Source: an uncultured Bacteroidales bacterium (GTDB lineage Bacteria; Bacteroidota; Bacteroidia; Bacteroidales; UBA3663). From it: a stretch of 64,000 nt of DNA. The position numbers and the translations under genes were made by a program. The stretch lies in the NCBI GenBank assembly GCA_905235375.1, contig CAJOLH010000018.1, positions 1-64,000 of the forward strand. The letters are read 5' to 3'. A model generated the notes under the pieces. The model did not search any database, had not been told where the DNA came from, and worked only from the letters and a program-made list of their open reading frames with translations. This document shows positions 3,525 to 18,271 of this stretch, one piece after another (positions within the stretch are counted from its first letter, which is position 1; the number at the start of each line of letters is the position of its first letter).

Positions 3525-6500
3525 GTTGTGACTTGCTTGAGAATTTAGTATATTTGCGTAGGCAATAACAACAAACTCCTCACGGGCATAGGCCTCCGAG
3601 CGTTGTGACTTGCTTGAGAATTTAGTATATTTGCGTAGGCAATAACAACGTTAGGCACTAACGGGTTGTCAAAGGCACTGTTGTGACTTGCTTGAGAATT
3701 TAGTATATTTGCGTAGGCAATAACAACGTTTCAATCGAACGATTTACTTCTAACTATGTTGTGACTTGCTTGAGAATTTAGTATATTTGCGTAGGCAATA
3801 ACAACCTCCTGCTTTATCACGCTTTCTCACACACGGTTGTGACTTGCTTGAGAATTTAGTATATTTGCGTAGGCAATAACAACCATCTCATCAAGAAGAA
3901 CGTTAAACCGACCGTTGTGACTTGCTTGAGAATTTAGTATATTTGCGTAGGCAATAACAACCAGATACAAGAGGAGTGATCTTCACTCGCGTTGTGACTT
4001 GCTTGAGAATTTAGTATATTTGCGTAGGCAATAACAACGAACAAGGGATTCAGGATCCTTACCATGCTGTTGTGACTTGCTTGAGAATTTAGTATATTTG
4101 CGTAGGCAATAACAACAACCGCCGTTATCAACTCAACCGCCGCCGAGTTGTGACTTGCTTGAGAATTTAGTATATTTGCGTAGGCAATAACAACGATTCC
4201 ACTTTACACTTGACCCGTGTGCGAGTTGTGACTTGCTTGAGAATTTAGTATATTTGCGTAGGCAATAACAACAGGCGAAGAGTTATCTACTCCATATCCA
4301 TAGTTGTGACTTGCTTGAGAATTTAGTATATTTGCGTAGGCAATAACAACACATACACAAACGGCGCGTGGTCGCATTGGGTTGTGACTTGCTTGAGAAT
4401 TTAGTATATTTGCGTAGGCAATAACAACAAATGTGCCTTCCGTTGTGGATATCCACTAGTTGTGACTTGCTTGAGAATTTAGTATATTTGCGTAGGCAAT
4501 AACAACTACGGGCAGACATACGGCAACATCGACCGTTGTGACTTGCTTGAGAATTTAGTATATTTGCGTAGGCAATAACAACCCAACTTTCGGTTGGATA
4601 GTATTAAGAATGGTTGTGACTTGCTTGAGAATTTAGTATATTTGCGTAGGCAATAACAACTACACGGCCATGACGGGGCAGCGGATGCAGGGTTGTGACT
4701 TGCTTGAGAATTTAGTATATTTGCGTAGGCAATAACAACTCGGAGTCAAAGGATTATCCCAAGCAGAGGGTTGTGACTTGCTTGAGAATTTAGTATATTT
4801 GCGTAGGCAATAACAACGTGTGCCCGTTGTAGGAGCTCGATACGCTTGTTGTGACTTGCTTGAGAATTTAGTATATTTGCGTAGGCAATAACAACGTTCC
4901 TGGCAATGCTTGAATCACGATTGTGGTTGTGACTTGCTTGAGAATTTAGTATATTTGCGTAGGCAATAACAACTTTCTTTGTTTCGTTTTCTTCACACCA
5001 GCTGTTGTGACTTGCTTGAGAATTTAGTATATTTGCGTAGGCAATAACAACCGCCAATGTTTACACCACTCGCTCCGCTGCGTTGTGACTTGCTTGAGAA
5101 TTTAGTATATTTGCGTAGGCAATAACAACCTCAATGCCATCAAGGGCATGGTGAGTGATGTTGTGACTTGCTTGAGAATTTAGTATATTTGCGTAGGCAA
5201 TAACAACGTGACGATGGTGTCGCCGTAGAGGTTGCTTGTTGTGACTTGCTTGAGAATTTAGTATATTTGCGTAGGCAATAACAACGTAACCGTGAAGATA
5301 TCAAATTCATCGCATGTTGTGACTTGCTTGAGAATTTAGTATATTTGCGTAGGCAATAACAACGCCCTCAACTTCAACCGCGACTCAGACCTGGTTGTGA
5401 CTTGCTTGAGAATTTAGTATATTTGCGTAGGCAATAACAACAGTTTTTTCGATTTTTGACTCAACTCACAGTTGTGACTTGCTTGAGAATTTAGTATATT
5501 TGCGTAGGCAATAACAACATAGGCGGTGTAATCAAACCTCGCGAGGGGTTGTGACTTGCTTGAGAATTTAGTATATTTGCGTAGGCAATAACAACCGGAG
5601 TGGAAAGGTCGTTCCATCCGCGCGGTTGTGACTTGCTTGAGAATTTAGTATATTTGCGTAGGCAATAACAACAAAAGGAATCCAAAGCACTAAAGAAATT
5701 ACGTTGTGACTTGCTTGAGAATTTAGTATATTTGCGTAGGCAATAACAACTCATTGCCATGAATGTCAGAAATATCGACTGTTGTGACTTGCTTGAGAAT
5801 TTAGTATATTTGCGTAGGCAATAACAACTTTCGTTTTTGGCTTTTGTTGTTTGCCGCTGTTGTGACTTGCTTGAGAATTTAGTATATTTGCGTAGGCAAT
5901 AACAACCTGGATAGGCTCTACACGCTCAATCCTGACGTTGTGACTTGCTTGAGAATTTAGTATATTTGCGTAGGCAATAACAACTTGTGCCAGACGTAAT
6001 TGTAAGTTCCTTGGGTTGTGACTTGCTTGAGAATTTAGTATATTTGCGTAGGCAATAACAACGCCAAAGCCAATAATTTAGACCTAAGTGGAGTTGTGAC
6101 TTGCTTGAGAATTTAGTATATTTGCGTAGGCAATAACAACGTCTGAACGATTTGGCTTGTGCCTGATTCGTTGTGACTTGCTTGAGAATTTAGTATATTT
6201 GCGTAGGCAATAACAACTAAGGTTTATTTTTGGATATAAGGTTTACTGTTGTGACTTGCTTGAGAATTTAGTATATTTGCGTAGGCAATAACAACTACTT
6301 CCCGAATAGCGGGCTTATGTATTAGTTGTGACTTGCTTGAGAATTTAGTATATTTGCGTAGGCAATAACAACTTACAGCCATTTTTATACTATTACCGCA
6401 TAGTTGTGACTTGCTTGAGAATTTAGTATATTTGCGTAGGCAATAACAACGACCTCCGTCAGAACATCGGAGTGCCGCTCGTTGTGACTTGCTTGAGAAT

Positions 6501-9500
6501 TTAGTATATTTGCGTAGGCAATAACAACTACGGCTTCTGCTTTAATGATAGAACGGAGGTTGTGACTTGCTTGAGAATTTAGTATATTTGCGTAGGCAAT
6601 AACAACGGCATGAAGGTCTACGAGGCGGTACAGAGGGTTGTGACTTGCTTGAGAATTTAGTATATTTGCGTAGGCAATAACAACCGAATGACCAATCTGC
6701 CGTTGTTGTTGAGGTTGTGACTTGCTTGAGAATTTAGTATATTTGCGTAGGCAATAACAACTTCTTTCGTATTCGTCCTGTTTATGTTAAGTTGTGACTT
6801 GCTTGAGAATTTAGTATATTTGCGTAGGCAATAACAACAATAGAGGTTGAAATAACCATGATTTGACAGTTGTGACTTGCTTGAGAATTTAGTATATTTG
6901 CGTAGGCAATAACAACATTTCTTTTTCAAGAACTACATCTTCTGCTGTTGTGACTTGCTTGAGAATTTAGTATATTTGCGTAGGCAATAACAACTTTCGC
7001 CATTGTAGATATATCGATCTCCCTGTTGTGACTTGCTTGAGAATTTAGTATATTTGCGTAGGCAATAACAACTCGGTCAGGAGCGAGAAGTCACGTCAGA
7101 GCGTTGTGACTTGCTTGAGAATTTAGTATATTTGCGTAGGCAATAACAACACGGCTATTGACAATGATGTTATCCAACTAGTTGTGACTTGCTTGAGAAT
7201 TTAGTATATTTGCGTAGGCAATAACAACTGGCTCGCCAAATATTGCTTGACCTAAATCGTTGTGACTTGCTTGAGAATTTAGTATATTTGCGTAGGCAAT
7301 AACAACTAGGAGGAAGATGGGCAAAGAAGCATACCGGTTGTGACTTGCTTGAGAATTTAGTATATTTGCGTAGGCAATAACAACATTTGTTTCAGTGTCC
7401 CCGCCCGCGACTTTGTTGTGACTTGCTTGAGAATTTAGTATATTTGCGTAGGCAATAACAACAATGGCTGCTAAATGGTTACGTGTAGTTCAGTTGTGAC
7501 TTGCTTGAGAATTTAGTATATTTGCGTAGGCAATAACAACAGGCAAAGGTTTTCTTGTGTTTGCACCAGTGTTGTGACTTGCTTGAGAATTTAGTATATT
7601 TGCGTAGGCAATAACAACATGTTGCGTTCAGCAGTACCGAAATTGTTTGTTGTGACTTGCTTGAGAATTTAGTATATTTGCGTAGGCAATAACAACAGGT
7701 TGAGCGAATTAAAACGGAAATCACCGTTGTGACTTGCTTGAGAATTTAGTATATTTGCGTAGGCAATAACAACCCAAAGCCAGCAGAAACGAGCATGAAA
7801 GGCGTTGTGACTTGCTTGAGAATTTAGTATATTTGCGTAGGCAATAACAACCTTGCTCATCATTCAAGTCTTTTTGCGATGGGTTGTGACTTGCTTGAGA
7901 ATTTAGTATATTTGCGTAGGCAATAACAACATTTTATTTCAGCACTATCATTACTTATCTGTTGTGACTTGCTTGAGAATTTAGTATATTTGCGTAGGCA
8001 ATAACAACGGAATGAATAATCATCATCATAGTCGTGATGTTGTGACTTGCTTGAGAATTTAGTATATTTGCGTAGGCAATAACAACCGCGCGTGTAAAAG
8101 TTACTTAAAAAGTTATGTTGTGACTTGCTTGAGAATTTAGTATATTTGCGTAGGCAATAACAACAATTCCACCACTTTATGACGGTTGTGCGTGGTTGTG
8201 ACTTGCTTGAGAATTTAGTATATTTGCGTAGGCAATAACAACAAAATTTTAAGATATGTAATCTATAAATTAGTTGTGACTTGCTTGAGAATTTAGTATA
8301 TTTGCGTAGGCAATAACAACAGGATGCACTTCCTAAATGGGGTTGATTGCGTTGTGACTTGCTTGAGAATTTAGTATATTTGCGTAGGCAATAACAACCG
8401 GCGTTGTTGTTCACGTTGTTGTTGTTAAGTTGTGACTTGCTTGAGAATTTAGTATATTTGCGTAGGCAATAACAACCTCTTCGACGAAGAGACGGTCGGA
8501 ATCCAAGTTGTGACTTGCTTGAGAATTTAGTATATTTGCGTAGGCAATAACAACACAAAATCAAATATAAACTTTCAAACATTAGTTGTGACTTGCTTGA
8601 GAATTTAGTATATTTGCGTAGGCAATAACAACAACAAGATACAAAAGGCTATTGCTTGGCTTGTTGTGACTTGCTTGAGAATTTAGTATATTTGCGTAGG
8701 CAATAACAACTCCGACATCACAGGCTTCTCCTACACCGTGTTGTGACTTGCTTGAGAATTTAGTATATTTGCGTAGGCAATAACAACCGTGGTGGAGGCA
8801 TATTCCTTGGCAACAGTGTTGTGACTTGCTTGAGAATTTAGTATATTTGCGTAGGCAATAACAACCTCTTCATAGTCTTGTGCAACTTCGGGATGTTGTG
8901 ACTTGCTTGAGAATTTAGTATATTTGCGTAGGCAATAACAACAGTATATTACAGACCAACTGTTGCCATCTGTTGTGACTTGCTTGAGAATTTAGTATAT
9001 TTGCGTAGGCAATAACAACTGGTCGAATCATACTCATTAGATTCTTTCCGTTGTGACTTGCTTGAGAATTTAGTATATTTGCGTAGGCAATAACAACCAC
9101 CGATTCTTTATTGTCTTTCGCCGGGGCGTTGTGACTTGCTTGAGAATTTAGTATATTTGCGTAGGCAATAACAACTTTGAATGAAAACAAACGAAAACAG
9201 ACCCGTTGTGACTTGCTTGAGAATTTAGTATATTTGCGTAGGCAATAACAACAAACTCGTCAGACAATTCAACATTCAACATGTTGTGACTTGCTTGAGA
9301 ATTTAGTATATTTGCGTAGGCAATAACAACCCCCAATGCTTTGTATGGCGACTTCCTGCTGTTGTGACTTGCTTGAGAATTTAGTATATTTGCGTAGGCA
9401 ATAACAACTGTTATTTGATGATACAGAACCACTTCAAGGTTGTGACTTGCTTGAGAATTTAGTATATTTGCGTAGGCAATAACAACGGATGGTGATCGGA

Positions 9501-9642
9501 GGTTAATCCGAGTAATGTTGTGACTTGCTTGAGAATTTAGTATATTTGCGTAGGCAATAACAACTGGTCGAATCATACTCAGTTGATTCTTTCCGTTGTG
9601 ACTTGCTTGAGAATTTAGTATATTTGCGTAGGCAATAACAAC
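3525..9642 (+). CRISPR. Type II-C CRISPR array, 48-bp repeat, 29-30-nt spacers, about 79 repeats/78 spacers
   Basis: Repeat GTTGTGACTTGCTTGAGAATTTAGTATATTTGCGTAGGCAATAACAAC. First repeat 3525-3572, last 9595-9642; 6070 nt between starts divided by about 77.8 gives about 78 units. crRNA sense is plus, from pairing with the tracrRNA anti-repeat. Confidence 0.99.
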
Positions 9643-9826: not shown

Positions 9827-11094
<1,268 letters not shown>

Positions 11095-11177: not shown

Positions 11178-14100
11178 TTATCTTACAATCTTGGTAATTC
11201 TTCCAAGACGATTAACAGTAAGTTTCCAGCATATTGATTTTATAGTAGGCTGGTTGAGTTCTCTTTCAATTTTTCCCAAGCTGTTGCCGATACTAATTTC
11301 GTGTATTACGCGATTCTTGCCACCGTAATCCTCCTCTGACTTGGCAACAAGAAGAGGTGAAGAGATACGATGAGGAATAAAGTAGGCACTCTTTTTCGTA
11401 CAACTTATAAATTTGTAGATTCTATTTCTGTTTAATTGGCCAATATCAGGAGGAGACAGTCGTTCATCCTCGCTGGGTACATATACCAATTCGTTTGGCG
11501 AAAGGGTAAACTTTAGTCTCCACCCATCATCATTTGTTTCTGGAACAGGTGCAAATCCTTGTTTGATTTGTTCTACGACAACATTAAGCGGAATGGTCTC
11601 ATAGTTTCGTTCACCATTTTTCGATTCATATATGGCAAAATACAGATTTGTTCCGCTTTGTGCTTCAGCATACTTGGATGCACTGCTGCCTGTTTCACCG
11701 ACTTTGAACTTCTCGCCCATAGGTTCAGAGACGCGAACATTCAAAATAGATTGATGTTTTCGACCTCCATTGAAATCGGCAATATGCTCGTTTAAGTCTG
11801 CTATGCCTTCTGGAGAGAAAGCAATTTTGGAATCATTACCCTTAGTGCCAAGATAGTTCAAAAGAATCTTTTGAATACCTGTATCTGTAATGGAAAGTAT
11901 TCTTTTTTGGTCAAAGGAGTCATCAAGTTTCTTGCGCACAGCCACCATAGGATCGGCATTGTCGGTGTAATAGTAAATCCGGATTTGCTTGCCTACCCCT
12001 TCTTCTGCCAATCGCTTTTTAAGTCTCTTCTTATCGAATCCTTGGCTTATTAGGTCAACGATTTGTCTGCGAAGTGAAGAATCAACAATATTGTTGATGT
12101 CCAAGAGAGCCGCATCTATAGAAACGGACTTAATCCTACGCAGATTGACGTGTCCAAACATTGTCTCCTTATGAAGTGGCTTGCGAACTACAAATTGTTT
12201 ACCTCCGTTTTGGGCAACTTGTCTCTTTCGCCCATCTGCATCGTAGTGCTCATAGTAATTGGTGGCACGAGAGAGAATACGCACTTTATTCTTGAAGCTG
12301 ACCACCACACCCGACAATGCCTGGTAAGCATCTTGGGTGAAGGTAGGCCAGGGCTTGATGAATAAACCGCCTTTCCCTGTCAGTTTTCGCTTCAAGTCTT
12401 CACGCGGTTCGGTCTTATTGGCGTTCATATTGGAAAGGAGATTGACCATACTGCGTGAGGCACAAGCAATGACAAGGGCATCCATGGCATGATGGCGATG
12501 ATCAATACGTTTCTTGGAAAAACCTTTGCGTAGAGACAATGGCATATCGGTCTGGAAGTAGCGTTTCCCGTCCTTGTTCTCCCAATGTCCGAAAAGCGTA
12601 GTGCCTGTTAGCTCGTTCAAGCGCTCGAAGCGAGGATATACCAAATGATTCCATACGTCGTTGAGACCCCAATCTTTTTTCAACCTGTCAGTGACGGAGC
12701 CTGTGCAGACGATGAGGTTCTTCGAGGTCTCCTGGTCGTCATTCTCGTCTGCTCGGACAATATTGGAGAGTAGGGCCTTGATGACTCGGCTGATGTAACG
12801 GCTGTCGTTCATCTGCCGCTGAATGAATTCTTCGGGGATGTCATCAAGCATGAGGTTGTGCTTCTTGGCTTTGAGGTGTGCATAGTGGTCCTGAACGAAC
12901 TGTTCGTACTCCTGCTTATTGAATACTTTGACTGTGCCGTGGGTTGTCGGTATAATCTTCCCTCCGTTCTGGCAGATGTATTCATGAGCCAACAGGTTGG
13001 TCTTGTCCCTGTTTACTTCGGCTTCGCATATCACCTTGTTGTTGAATGAGTCATCATAATAGCGGGTACGTGGTATTACATGCTCTATCTGGTAGGCTGG
13101 CGTGAAGAGACGGGACAAGGGGATGACCTGTCCGGTATAGGGAGAACGGTAGCGTTGTTCAAGCCATAGCTTGTATCGGGTTAGTTGGCTTGCCGAAGGT
13201 TGTGCCATGCGCGAGATTTCGGATATCTCCTTAAACTCGGGGTCGGATGGCTTGAGTTCGGTAAGTGCACCCTCTTCATAGATCCGAAGGATATCCTGCT
13301 GCATAGGACTGTTAGGACGAACATCCAGTATGTCGGCATCGTTGAGCAGTTCTATGAGAAGTGCTTTAATACGCAGGTTTGTGTTCTCGTTTTCGCGATT
13401 CTTTTCGCTGATACGCTGGCGTATGTCTGCAGGATTTTTCATCTCGCGTCCTAACTCAAGATGTATTTCATCGATATGCCCGTATTCCTGCCAGATGTCT
13501 GCCACGGTTCTCAGCGTCTCAAGGATACACTGCTCAACAATCGGGTTGCGCAAGGAGTGCTGTTGGAAGTCCATAATGAAGGTATGGATGTCATGTGGAG
13601 ACTTCCATGGCTGTGTGGGTTTCTGACCATATAGCTCTTCGCACGCTTGTTCGGAACGCTTTCCTTGTCGCATAAGTGGCAATATCTTCTTTATCGCCTT
13701 CTCGGAATAGCTTCCGTACTCCTTCTCGAAGGGTTTGGCTTTCGAGAAGATTTCGACGAATTTATCGATGTCGGCAACATGTATGAAGGATGCAAACTTG
13801 CGGAGGGCTCCCCGTAGCTCCTCCACGTCATCGATTGAATAAAGCAGATGCCAAAGCCGATGTTCTAAAGCAGGGTCGTTAAGAAGATTGACTGGCGCTC
13901 CCGACTTTTCAAGACAGCCTATTAACAAAGCTCGTGTTTCGCCTACAGGATACTTCTTGTCCTCGACATAGTTCCATCGCAGAGGATATTTTGAATCTTT
14001 CCCTTTGGGCTTCTTGATTCCAAGATAATCCTTCAATAAGGAATCCATATCTACAACCTCACGTTTGCTAAGCCAGCAATATAGATGTTCCCAAGCAGCC

Positions 14101-15548
14101 TTGTCGGGGAAATATGTCAAAGTCACCTCCTTGTCCTCGATACCACTTGTATCATAGAGTCTGAGGTTCTGCATGAACTGACGGATGCGAAATTCCTGGA
14201 AGTAGGGATTGCTCTTGGCAATACACTTGTTGTATTGGATTTTCTCTTCGCCTGTCTCATGATCGACATATTTATGATATTCGAAGGGGCAGTTGCTTAT
14301 CAGAGACTTTTTGCTCTTGAGAGGTCGCTGATAGAAGAGTATGTCTTCAATAAGAAGGTAAGACATATCCTTCTGCTTAAGGCTATCCTGACGCGCAAGA
14401 TTATGGCAGTAGAGAGATTCGCTGCACGCATCAAGGAGGCTCTTGTCACTTAATTCGGAATGAAACTCCGCCTGTTTTTGAAGAATGGCATAGAGTTCAT
14501 CTTTGTAGAAACGACGGTCGATGGTCTCGACGAGCTTTCCGATTATTTTCCCGGATGGGTCGGAAAGCAGATGCTGATAGATGTATTCGCCGATTTTCAT
14601 GCAGCTTTGCTCAACTCCCTTTTCCGTTCGTACCTTGCGGAGCGTCCAATCGTCGGGGTTGGGGGCGCGGAAAGAACGTTTCACTTCACCCTCCTTGTTG
14701 CGTTTGGGCTGACCTTTTTCGTCGAATTCTGTTGTGACAATGAACTCGCGTTTCTTTCCGATCCAGTCTTTCAAACTGATTTGGCTTTGTCGGCGATAGA
14801 CCATCCCATTGGCCAGATGAACATTATACCATCGTCCTTTGTTCGTTTCTTTCTCGTTGGGGTCGGAGTCAACATTTATCACTTCCTGCTCGATGTATTC
14901 GACAAGTTTTGTCTTGTCGTTGTCTTGGCTGATTTCGTCCTTGCCGCGCAGTTGGTAATAGCCACGCTTTTGGTTGAAGTTGAGTAGAATCCAAGCTATC
15001 TCTTCTTTTGTGATGGGGCGCGTCAATGCCTTCTGACGTAGATAATAAAGGGTCCAATCATAGGGAATCTTTTTCCCATCAGCAACTAAAAGCGGCTGTT
15101 TCTCTTTGAATTCGGCCAGCATCTCTTCGAAAGAGTCTTGAAACAAGAATTTAGGTTTCCCTTGGGCATCACGTGTCCATGCGATCTTTGGTTCTTCATC
15201 AGGATTGATGAATTTTCCGAAACTCTTAGTTTGACGAGGATTCCAACCAATAGCGTGATCATAATGCACTGGAAGAAAACCGAGGATATGGAGCACTCGC
15301 AGCAGACGTTCTCGACGAAGGGCGCGACGTTCATAAAGTCGGCGCATCCCTCGTTTCTGTGTGCGTGCGGCTGTTTGTGTTTGAATGGGAGCACCACCTT
15401 CGAATGCACCAAGGATATCTTGGGTCATTGGGATGATACGGCTTCCTAATTTGATCTTTCTTTGGTATTCAGAACCTTCGTCATCGGTTTGAATGAGAGC
15501 CCAACCAATACTATTTGTGCCTAAATCGAGGCCTAAAATGTTTTTCAT
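11178..15548 (-). CDS. cas9: CRISPR-associated endonuclease Cas9 (type II-C, 1456 aa)
   Basis: RuvC-I MKNILGLDLGTNSIGWALI, HNH region YQIEHVIPRTRYYDDSFNNKVICEAEVNRDKTN, RuvC-III DHRHHAMDALVIA; no csn2 or cas4 nearby. Confidence 0.98.
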   Translation of the reverse strand: MKNILGLDLGTNSIGWALIQTDDEGSEYQRKIKLGSRIIPMTQDILGAFEGGAPIQTQTAARTQKRGMRRLYERRALRRERLLRVLHILGFLPVHYDHAIGWNPRQTKSFGKFINPDEEPKIAWTRDAQGKPKFLFQDSFEEMLAEFKEKQPLLVADGKKIPYDWTLYYLRQKALTRPITKEEIAWILLNFNQKRGYYQLRGKDEISQDNDKTKLVEYIEQEVINVDSDPNEKETNKGRWYNVHLANGMVYRRQSQISLKDWIGKKREFIVTTEFDEKGQPKRNKEGEVKRSFRAPNPDDWTLRKVRTEKGVEQSCMKIGEYIYQHLLSDPSGKIIGKLVETIDRRFYKDELYAILQKQAEFHSELSDKSLLDACSESLYCHNLARQDSLKQKDMSYLLIEDILFYQRPLKSKKSLISNCPFEYHKYVDHETGEEKIQYNKCIAKSNPYFQEFRIRQFMQNLRLYDTSGIEDKEVTLTYFPDKAAWEHLYCWLSKREVVDMDSLLKDYLGIKKPKGKDSKYPLRWNYVEDKKYPVGETRALLIGCLEKSGAPVNLLNDPALEHRLWHLLYSIDDVEELRGALRKFASFIHVADIDKFVEIFSKAKPFEKEYGSYSEKAIKKILPLMRQGKRSEQACEELYGQKPTQPWKSPHDIHTFIMDFQQHSLRNPIVEQCILETLRTVADIWQEYGHIDEIHLELGREMKNPADIRQRISEKNRENENTNLRIKALLIELLNDADILDVRPNSPMQQDILRIYEEGALTELKPSDPEFKEISEISRMAQPSASQLTRYKLWLEQRYRSPYTGQVIPLSRLFTPAYQIEHVIPRTRYYDDSFNNKVICEAEVNRDKTNLLAHEYICQNGGKIIPTTHGTVKVFNKQEYEQFVQDHYAHLKAKKHNLMLDDIPEEFIQRQMNDSRYISRVIKALLSNIVRADENDDQETSKNLIVCTGSVTDRLKKDWGLNDVWNHLVYPRFERLNELTGTTLFGHWENKDGKRYFQTDMPLSLRKGFSKKRIDHRHHAMDALVIACASRSMVNLLSNMNANKTEPREDLKRKLTGKGGLFIKPWPTFTQDAYQALSGVVVSFKNKVRILSRATNYYEHYDADGRKRQVAQNGGKQFVVRKPLHKETMFGHVNLRRIKSVSIDAALLDINNIVDSSLRRQIVDLISQGFDKKRLKKRLAEEGVGKQIRIYYYTDNADPMVAVRKKLDDSFDQKRILSITDTGIQKILLNYLGTKGNDSKIAFSPEGIADLNEHIADFNGGRKHQSILNVRVSEPMGEKFKVGETGSSASKYAEAQSGTNLYFAIYESKNGERNYETIPLNVVVEQIKQGFAPVPETNDDGWRLKFTLSPNELVYVPSEDERLSPPDIGQLNRNRIYKFISCTKKSAYFIPHRISSPLLVAKSEEDYGGKNRVIHEISIGNSLGKIERELNQPTIKSICWKLTVNRLGRITKIVR

Positions 15549-15570
15549 ATAAAAAAAATTGAAAAATTAT

Positions 15571-15601
15571 TTGGAAGTTATTATTTTTTCCCTTATCTTT
15601 G
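15571..15601 (+). promoter_or_regulatory. Predicted tracrRNA promoter (Bacteroidetes consensus)
   Basis: TTG (15571-15573), 20 nt, TATCTTTG (15594-15601). Confidence 0.75.
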
Positions 15602-15607
15602 CACCCA

Positions 15608-15692
15608 GATACTAAAAATATCTCAAGCAAGTCACAATAAGGATTATTCCGTTGTGAAAACATCAGGGCGGGGCAACTCGCCCTTTTTCTTT
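15608..15692 (+). ncRNA. tracrRNA
   Basis: Anti-repeat TACTAAAAATATCTCAAGCAAGTCACAAT (15610-15638) pairs with repeat GTTGTGACTTGCTTGAGAATTTAGTA (18 bp + internal loop + 7 bp); terminator GGGCG...CGCCCTTTTTCTTT at 15666-15692. Confidence 0.9.
15666..15692 (+). terminator. Rho-independent terminator of tracrRNA
   Basis: GGGCGGGGCAACTCGCCC followed by TTTTTCTTT. Confidence 0.85.
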
Positions 15693-15706
15693 CAGTGTAA
15701 CGGTTG

Positions 15707-15737
15707 CAAAGATAGGTACTTTTTCTTATTTATCCAA
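15707..15737 (-). promoter_or_regulatory. Predicted cas9-cas1-cas2 promoter
   Basis: Minus strand TTG (15737-15735), 20 nt, TATCTTTG (15714-15707). Confidence 0.7.
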
Positions 15738-15990
15738 ATAAATGAGAGAAATTCTGAAAAAATAATAGTAAAATTAGATATTTGCTACATGGTTTATCAT
15801 CGTTGATGTGTCTCGCAGGAAGATTAACCATGATTGCATCGTGTGTGCCCGATTACTTTATTGTAAAATGGAATCTGCCCACAAAATGCCTCATAATTTA
15901 ATATATAGTAAACACTCGGTACAAAATTGAGACTTTTTTTCGCTAAAAGGACGATTTTTGTGGTATTTGGAACCATTTTATTGAAATATT

Positions 15991-16216: not shown

Positions 16217-18271
16217 TTGATGAAATATATTGCAATGACATCAATGCTCATGGCCGGAATGTTGACCGGATGCAGCGTGAATCAGAAGGAGGAGGTCGCA
16301 CCCGAAGTGCAGCCTTGGAGTGTGGACCGTTTCGCTGACATCGAAGTGCTGCGCTACGAAGTGCCGGCATTCGAGGAACTGCCATTGGCGCAGAAAGAGC
16401 TTATCTATTACCTCACGGAGGCTGCTCAGTGGGGTCGCGACATTCTGTGGGATCAGAATTGCCGCTTCAACCTGCCCATACGCAACATCTGCGAGGCCAT
16501 CTACCAGAACTACAAGGGCGACAAGGAGGATGCGCAGTGGAAGGCTTTCGAGCAGTACACGAAGCAGATATGGTTTGCCAACGGCATCCATCATCACTAC
16601 AGCACTGCCAAGTTCAACCCCGAGTTTACGCAGGAATGGTTCGAGACGCAGATCAGCGAACTGCCAGCTGCCGTGAAGGATGAGGCCCTGCAGCAGGATC
16701 TGGCTATGCCCGACCTGATGCGTGCCATCTTCGACCCGAAGTTCATGGCCATCAAGACCAATCAGGCCGATGGCGTGGATCTGATTGCCACCTCTGCCAA
16801 CAACTATTACGAGGGCGTGACGCAGAAGGAGGTGGAGAAATACTATGCCAAGCTGAAGAATCCGAAGGACCTTACTCCTGTGATGTACGGCCTGAACTCG
16901 AAGATGGTGAAGGAGAAGGGCAAGCTGGTCGAGATGACCTACAAGGTGGGCGGTCTCTACAGCCCTGCCATCGAGAAGATTGTGTTCTGGCTGGAGAAGG
17001 CCAGTGCCGTGGCTGAGAACGAGAAGCAGAAAGCTGCCATCGATGCGCTCATCCAGTATTATCGCAGTGGCGACCTGAAGGACTTCGACACCTACAGCAT
17101 CCTGTGGGTGGAGGATCTGCAAAGCCGCGTGGATTTCATCAACGGCTTCATCGAGAGCTATGGCGATCCCCTGGGTCTGCGTGGAGCATGGGAGTCGATT
17201 GTGAACTTCAAGGATTCGGCCAACACAGCCCGCACCGAGATAATCTCGAGCAATGCGCAGTGGTTTGAGGATCGTTCGCCCGTCGATCCGCGTTTCCGCA
17301 AGCCTGTGGTCAAGGGTGTGACTGCCAAGGTCATCACCGCTGCCATCCTGGCGGGCGACAGCTATCCCTCGACCCCTATCGGCATCAATCTGCCCAACTC
17401 GAACTGGATACGTGCCCAGCATGGTTCGAAGTCGGTGAGCATCGACAACATTACGGCAGCCTACGACGCTGCTGCCCAGGGCAACGGCTTCGGTGAGGAG
17501 TTCATGTGGAGCGAAGTTGAGATTGAGCAGGCCAAGCAGTATGCCCATTATGTAGATAACGTGCATACCGACCTGCATGAATGCCTGGGTCATGCCAGCG
17601 GACAGCTGCTCCCTGGTGTCGATCCGGATGCCTTGAAAGCCTACGGCTCCACCCTTGAGGAGGCTCGCGCCGACATCTTTGCACTCTACTATATGGCCGA
17701 CCCCAAGCTCGTCGAGCTGGGTGTGATGCCCAATGCTGATGCTTACAAGGCAGGCTATTACCAGCAGATGATGAACGGACTGATGACCCAGCTCGTCCGC
17801 ATCAAGCCGGGTGATAATCTGGAGGAAGCCCACATGCGCAACCGCGCACTTATCGCCAACTGGACGCTTGCTATGGCTCAGCAGGATGCTGAAGAAGATG
17901 GTGGTGAGCCTGCACTCTGCTTCGAGAAGCGCGACGGCAAGACCTACGTCAAGATCAACGACTACGAGAAGCTGCGTTCCTATTTTGCTGAGATTCTTGG
18001 CGAACTGCAGCGCATCAAGAGCGAAGGGGATTTCGAGGCAGGCCGTATGCTGGTGGAGACCTACGGCGTGAAGGTCAATCCTGAACTTCATAAGGAAGTG
18101 CTCGAGCGTTATCAGTCGCTCCACATCGCTCCCTACAAGGGTTTCGTCAATCCGCGATATGAGCTTGTGAAGGATGCCGACGGCAAGGTCACCGATGTGA
18201 AGATCATCTATGGCTCGGAGACCTATCCCGAGCAGATGCTTCGCTACAGCAAGGACTATTCAGCACTATGA
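16217..18271 (+). CDS. Dipeptidyl peptidase III-like metallopeptidase (family M49), lipoprotein
   Basis: HECLGH zinc motif (HTDLHECLGHASGQL) with downstream EEARAD; lipobox-like MLTGCS. Confidence 0.9.
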   Translation: MMKYIAMTSMLMAGMLTGCSVNQKEEVAPEVQPWSVDRFADIEVLRYEVPAFEELPLAQKELIYYLTEAAQWGRDILWDQNCRFNLPIRNICEAIYQNYKGDKEDAQWKAFEQYTKQIWFANGIHHHYSTAKFNPEFTQEWFETQISELPAAVKDEALQQDLAMPDLMRAIFDPKFMAIKTNQADGVDLIATSANNYYEGVTQKEVEKYYAKLKNPKDLTPVMYGLNSKMVKEKGKLVEMTYKVGGLYSPAIEKIVFWLEKASAVAENEKQKAAIDALIQYYRSGDLKDFDTYSILWVEDLQSRVDFINGFIESYGDPLGLRGAWESIVNFKDSANTARTEIISSNAQWFEDRSPVDPRFRKPVVKGVTAKVITAAILAGDSYPSTPIGINLPNSNWIRAQHGSKSVSIDNITAAYDAAAQGNGFGEEFMWSEVEIEQAKQYAHYVDNVHTDLHECLGHASGQLLPGVDPDALKAYGSTLEEARADIFALYYMADPKLVELGVMPNADAYKAGYYQQMMNGLMTQLVRIKPGDNLEEAHMRNRALIANWTLAMAQQDAEEDGGEPALCFEKRDGKTYVKINDYEKLRSYFAEILGELQRIKSEGDFEAGRMLVETYGVKVNPELHKEVLERYQSLHIAPYKGFVNPRYELVKDADGKVTDVKIIYGSETYPEQMLRYSKDYSAL

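Follow-up and report, generated by a model that had tools for sequence, protein, structure and literature searches.

Organization of the type II-C CRISPR-Cas locus

The window, i.e., the whole 64,000-nucleotide stretch of DNA from a gut-type Bacteroidales bacterium analyzed here, contains a CRISPR array on the plus strand (3525–9642), followed by three minus-strand genes, cas2 (9827–10162; TIGR01573, E = 3.6e-17), a type II cas1 of the NMENI family (10165–11094; TIGR03639, E = 1.2e-94), and cas9 (11178–15548; 1456 aa; TIGR01865, E = 2.3e-119), and then by a 668-bp intergenic region and a divergent gene at 16217. Inspection of the open reading frames placed cas2, cas1, and cas9 contiguously between the array and the tracrRNA, with no further cas genes among the reading frames of this interval. 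The locus is a type II-C CRISPR-Cas system, with an array and cas9, cas1, and cas2 only, and its tracrRNA has all of the anti-repeat, nexus, and terminator elements characteristic of this type. The array consists of 79 identical 48-nt repeats, each carrying TTG-N20-TATATTTG, and of spacers of 28–31 nt (mostly 30 nt). Two spacers at the cas-proximal end of the array, seven units apart (9020–9049 and 9565–9594), are near-identical (2 mismatches in 30 nt), perhaps due to repeated acquisition from related targets.

Promoters and tracrRNA upstream of cas9

The intergenic region upstream of cas9 contains only two complete (9/9) promoter sites, one on each strand. Read directly from the sequence, both are exact instances of TTG-N20-TAnnTTTG, the sigma-ABfr arrangement of TTG/TTTG near -33 and TAnnTTTG near -7, in agreement with the published consensus (PMC7366714). 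Genome-wide, this pattern is enriched, with 766 matches versus 85 for the reversed pattern. The plus-strand site (15571–15601; TTGGAAGTTATTATTTTTTCCCTTATCTTTG, i.e., TTG-N20-TATCTTTG) is the tracrRNA promoter, whose -33 element lies 22 nt from the cas9 ATG. The minus-strand site (15707–15737; TTGGATAAATAAGAAAAAGTACCTATCTTTG, read from 15737 to 15707 and likewise TTG-N20-TATCTTTG) is the predicted cas9 promoter, located at -166 with an expected start near 15700. Both promoters had been placed at these positions by the original prediction, which the exact motif matches bear out. The sole other near-consensus site for the tracrRNA (15582; 8/9) would lengthen this RNA by about 12 nt, and two weaker cas9-strand sites lie farther upstream (16170 and 16024), from either of which the leader would likewise overlap the tracrRNA. 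We infer the transcription starts of cas9 and the tracrRNA from these promoter positions, and they are used below as predictions.

The predicted tracrRNA (about 15607–15693, plus strand) starts within a few nucleotides of its anti-repeat (15610–15638), which is followed by a nexus hairpin and then by a terminator hairpin (15665–15684) that has a T-rich tail. The anti-repeat pairs with the CRISPR repeat in two arms, of 18 bp and 8 bp, on either side of a small internal loop, and the duplex has a computed energy of -35.1 kcal/mol; the position and the 18-bp arm had been predicted correctly, whereas the second arm had been given as 7 bp. Folding of 15608–15694 produced the nexus and terminator hairpins (z = -4.3), and the terminator-like site on the plus strand is followed by TTTTCTTTCA, so that hairpin and tail stand where termination had been predicted. 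No tracrRNA family of Rfam matched between 5 and 22 kb of the window at the gathering threshold. The same hairpin read on the minus strand is followed only by GATGTTTTCA, with no clean T-run, and was rated a weak terminator-like site by a simple scan; cas9 transcription therefore probably reads through it.

From the tracrRNA start to the cas9 ATG, no promoter site of at least 8/9 was found on the cas9 strand, and the cas9 leader should therefore include a complement of the entire tracrRNA. Based on the promoter positions, the predicted leader (15549–15701, minus strand) is about 150 nt long and would enclose the tracrRNA, since the cas9 promoter is situated just past the tracrRNA terminator. 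The tracrRNA ends about 15 nt short of the cas9 promoter, and about 59 nt of the leader adjoining the cas9 ATG lie outside the overlap, leaving the ribosome-binding region uncovered by the tracrRNA. A full duplex between the tracrRNA and the leader would comprise 87 bp with a computed energy of -161 kcal/mol, compared to -35 kcal/mol for the tracrRNA:repeat duplex.

A 'repeat mimic' had also been described in the leader. It is present, but it is the complement of the anti-repeat by construction and thus adds no independent evidence. As a separate scaRNA-like element, it was rejected: the segment is the exact anti-repeat complement and is not followed by a terminator-like site on the minus strand. 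In place of a separate small RNA with a repeat-like segment, its own start and terminator, and targets in other genes, we found a repeat-like segment inside the predicted cas9 leader, with the minus-strand hairpin upstream of it. The idea that the leader might yield a crRNA-like guide was set aside by reasoning, since the target of such a guide would be the very tracrRNA gene, with repeat-like sequence adjoining that target just as repeats adjoin the spacers of the array.

Conservation of the nested arrangement among cas9 loci

We compared 119 distinct cas9 loci, taken from named genomes or located by searching whole genomes of the family, the order, the phylum, and an additional family (f59) that contains Bacteroides- and Segatella-type loci. 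A 24-nt tracrRNA core (CACAATAAGGATTATTCCGTTGTG) is present upstream of cas9 in 112/119 loci (identical in 108 of the 112), where the tracrRNA is antisense to cas9 in 109 and co-directional in three. The three co-directional loci (L166, L168, and L170), with the tracrRNA promoter and terminator both upstream of cas9, represent a third architecture that occurs in one clade only. In at least two loci (L091 and L095), the core is instead located past the end of cas9, several kb downstream of where cas9 starts; the latter locus belongs to a genome with no RNase III match, and its repeat lacks the promoter motif.

The window's clade is characterized by a full tracrRNA promoter a short distance from the cas9 ATG, found in 17/17 antisense loci (form 1). 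In 10/17 of these clade loci, the roughly 70 nt that follow the tracrRNA terminator contain a full cas9-sense promoter, versus 0/92 of the other antisense loci (Fisher p = 5e-10), and when the exact -7 element alone was counted, the numbers were 13/17 and 2/92 (Fisher p = 1e-11), with a background expectation of 0.07 exact -7 sites per 62 nt; since the loci share ancestry and are not independent data points, the p-values gauge association, not how many events took place. Among the same 17 loci, seven have no full cas9 promoter beyond the terminator, and four have no exact -7 element there. On the Cas9 tree, the window falls within a 16-locus clade with 100% local support that is entirely of form 1, except for one locus without a detectable tracrRNA, showing that the nested arrangement is not a one-off. 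The Cas9 proteins of this clade are mostly only 53–64% identical to that of the window. The nested-antisense geometry of the original prediction thus finds support both in the locus anatomy and in its conservation within the clade. Its proposed conservation check in related loci came out unevenly, with the tracrRNA promoter present in every antisense clade locus and the cas9 promoter in only the 10 counted above. Judged by these sequence comparisons, the overlap is a real architecture specific to one Bacteroidales Cas9 clade.

In the Bacteroides-like loci (form 2), the tracrRNA is farther out and a cas9 -7 element is located at -22 to -45 in 32/65 loci, so that the two promoters would overlap back to back with no overlap of the leader. 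Such back-to-back promoters are found, for example, in L005, L008, L148, L154, L179, and L181, and RNA polymerase binding could be mutually exclusive at promoters of this type. This form lends some plausibility to the idea that cas9 of the window is also transcribed from a weaker or unrecognized promoter downstream of the tracrRNA start, in which case the transcripts would not overlap. We consider this distinctly unlikely, because an exact cas9 -7 element at -22 to -45 is present in 0/17 clade loci, the window has no site of at least 8/9 there, and the tracrRNA promoter takes up the stretch from that start to the ATG. Nevertheless, placement alone is no proof of overlap, since other loci have the tracrRNA equally near cas9 without a recognizable cas9 promoter. 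In a further 27 short-gap loci, all outside the clade, a cas9 -7 element is missing near the ATG and, in most, also past the terminator.

The placement of the tracrRNA changes often on the Cas9 tree (20 changes for the short type), which makes pure compaction a serious alternative. According to this explanation, the overlap would be a side effect of fitting an indispensable RNA gene and two promoters into little intergenic space; the tracrRNA would function solely in trans, together with crRNA and Cas9, and cas9 output would be unaltered. The labile location of the tracrRNA (antisense, co-directional, or at the array end) argues against a strong dependence on the overlap, and compaction is also consistent with the divergent overlapping promoters of the Bacteroides type, the three co-directional loci, and the uncovered leader segment beside the cas9 ATG. 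It accounts less well for the retention of the nested two-promoter form throughout a clade with such diverged Cas9 proteins, and in both main forms the promoter arrangement could let one transcription event disturb the other. We therefore regard compaction as quite possible, although short of probable.

Apparent loss of RNase III and a possible route of crRNA production

We searched for RNase III in the genome of the window and in its genus. None was found in the window's genome using PF14622, in 15 genus genomes (G000–G014) using PF00636 or a direct protein query, or in four genus members using TIGR02191, a model that detected RNase III in 12/12 relatives from other families and in 373/394 Bacteroidales genomes. 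The genus genomes are drafts with 63–90% completeness. In Segatella, rnc overlaps the end of fabF, and in the five genus members examined, the usual rnc slot after acpP-fabF is occupied by an ornithine-carbamoyltransferase-type gene (named by eye). Because the fabF neighborhood is intact and rearranged, a shared assembly gap does not explain the missing rnc, and RNase III appears to have been lost from the whole genus. Elsewhere in Bacteroidales, three genomes (G237, G379, and G394) have a Cas9 match and no RNase III match by TIGR02191, and other genomes without an RNase III match include members of families f9 and f26.

These results bear on the claim that RNase III cleaves the tracrRNA:cas9-leader duplex and thereby links cas9 expression to free tracrRNA. 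In other type II systems, tracrRNA duplexes are targets of RNase III. The enzyme also acts on an antisense sRNA pair in Campylobacter (PMC8687705), and other members of the Cas9 clade, such as Segatella, possess it. In the window's genus, a host RNase III for such an antisense pair was not detected and its slot beside fabF holds another gene in the members examined, which contradicts this part of the original prediction and makes the cleavage reading highly improbable here. Given the apparent absence of the enzyme, cleavage of either the tracrRNA:leader or the tracrRNA:crRNA duplex is not expected, and any control of cas9 would need another route.

Production of crRNAs without RNase III is plausible because every repeat contains a promoter. 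The exact motif is present in 79/79 repeats of the window, giving the one-promoter-per-repeat feature of Neisseria-type arrays, and TAnnTTTG was found in 60/78 repeats across Bacteroidota loci, mostly 18–21 nt after TTG, compared to 4.5% of shuffled repeats. A related suggestion of repeat promoters was made for Flavobacterium columnare, based on TTG alone (PMC8092290), while in Riemerella the repeats were found to have no promoters (PMC5006608). By analogy with Neisseria, the crRNAs would be made as primary transcripts, one promoter per repeat, and we consider RNase III-free maturation from repeat promoters the more likely route.

Possible coupling of cas9 and tracrRNA transcription

The predicted architecture suggests how the two genes may influence each other. 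The tracrRNA gene, with its own promoter near the cas9 start codon, would be nested antisense in the cas9 5' leader, and every cas9 transcription event would cross the tracrRNA promoter and template. Transcription of the tracrRNA would stop before the cas9 promoter, and the most likely coupling is therefore asymmetric and mostly transcriptional. Because the ribosome-binding region is uncovered and the tracrRNA ends before the cas9 promoter, the more direct interference would be that of cas9 transcription through the tracrRNA promoter, and not the reverse. Pairing of the two RNAs, over 87 bp, is a further possibility.

Such pairing is the basis of an alternative in which the tracrRNA is a cis-antisense repressor, with free tracrRNA binding the leader and reducing cas9 expression through an elongation block or mRNA destabilization, neither of which would need RNase III. 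The perfect complementarity, with its large energy difference from the tracrRNA:repeat duplex, is consistent with this alternative, as is the precedent of neighbor-repressing cis-antisense RNAs in Bacteroides (DonS, PMC7366714). However, the start codon and proximal leader are uncovered, both RNAs are structured, which should slow pairing, and Cas9-bound tracrRNA would not be free; the coexistence of both RNAs is also an assumption. Overall, repression of this kind seems unlikely to us.

Cas9 autoregulation or promoter interference, as raised in the original prediction, is possible. We infer transcript starts, coupling, and RNase III-free maturation, and regard the combination of a nested tracrRNA, asymmetric transcriptional coupling, and RNase III-free crRNAs as fairly probable. 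A more ambitious proposal, that a type II system runs naturally without RNase III, with crRNAs started from sigma-ABfr promoters and cas9 tuned by its nested antisense tracrRNA, is tentative, and we doubt that all of it holds. The same doubt applies to the tuning route that it would entail, namely transcriptional interference or cleavage-free pairing, which would be distinct from control by long-form tracrRNA or scaRNA.

Comparison with known type II systems

The nested antisense, divergent overlapping, and co-directional loci provide a natural, phylogenetically replicated comparison for studying whether Cas9 and tracrRNA supply are coupled. In addition, a type II array of 79 repeats in a genus apparently without RNase III makes the possible dispensability of this enzyme for type II immunity testable in a natural host. 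The Bacteroidota II-C systems of Bacteroides fragilis, Flavobacterium columnare, and Riemerella anatipestifer share cas9, cas1, and cas2 with the present locus, the repeats of Bacteroides and Riemerella are 47 nt (48 nt here), and Riemerella has a putative tracrRNA or anti-repeat upstream of cas9, as found here (PMC5006608, PMC5704556, and PMC8092290). In the passages of these reports that were consulted, the tracrRNA or anti-repeat is only predicted and a two-promoter overlap with the cas9 leader is undescribed; a literature search of titles, abstracts, and passages likewise returned no description of a tracrRNA inside the cas9 leader in Bacteroidota.

Outside this phylum, the II-C system of Neisseria meningitidis also has a promoter in every repeat and can make crRNAs without RNase III, as reported in PMC5006608 and PMC8092290 with citation of the original work, whereas the promoters here are of the Bacteroidota sigma-ABfr type and the host genus seems to be without RNase III altogether. 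The long-form tracrRNA of Streptococcus pyogenes controls cas expression (summarized in PMC8730458). Here, the promoter positions predict no 5' extension with a guide against a cas promoter, and pairing would be with the mRNA leader and not with promoter DNA. In Streptococcus agalactiae, RNA-seq revealed an antisense transcript over the tracrRNA 3' end, a separate short RNA of about 100 nt (PMC4448216), whereas here the predicted cas9 mRNA leader itself would span the whole tracrRNA.
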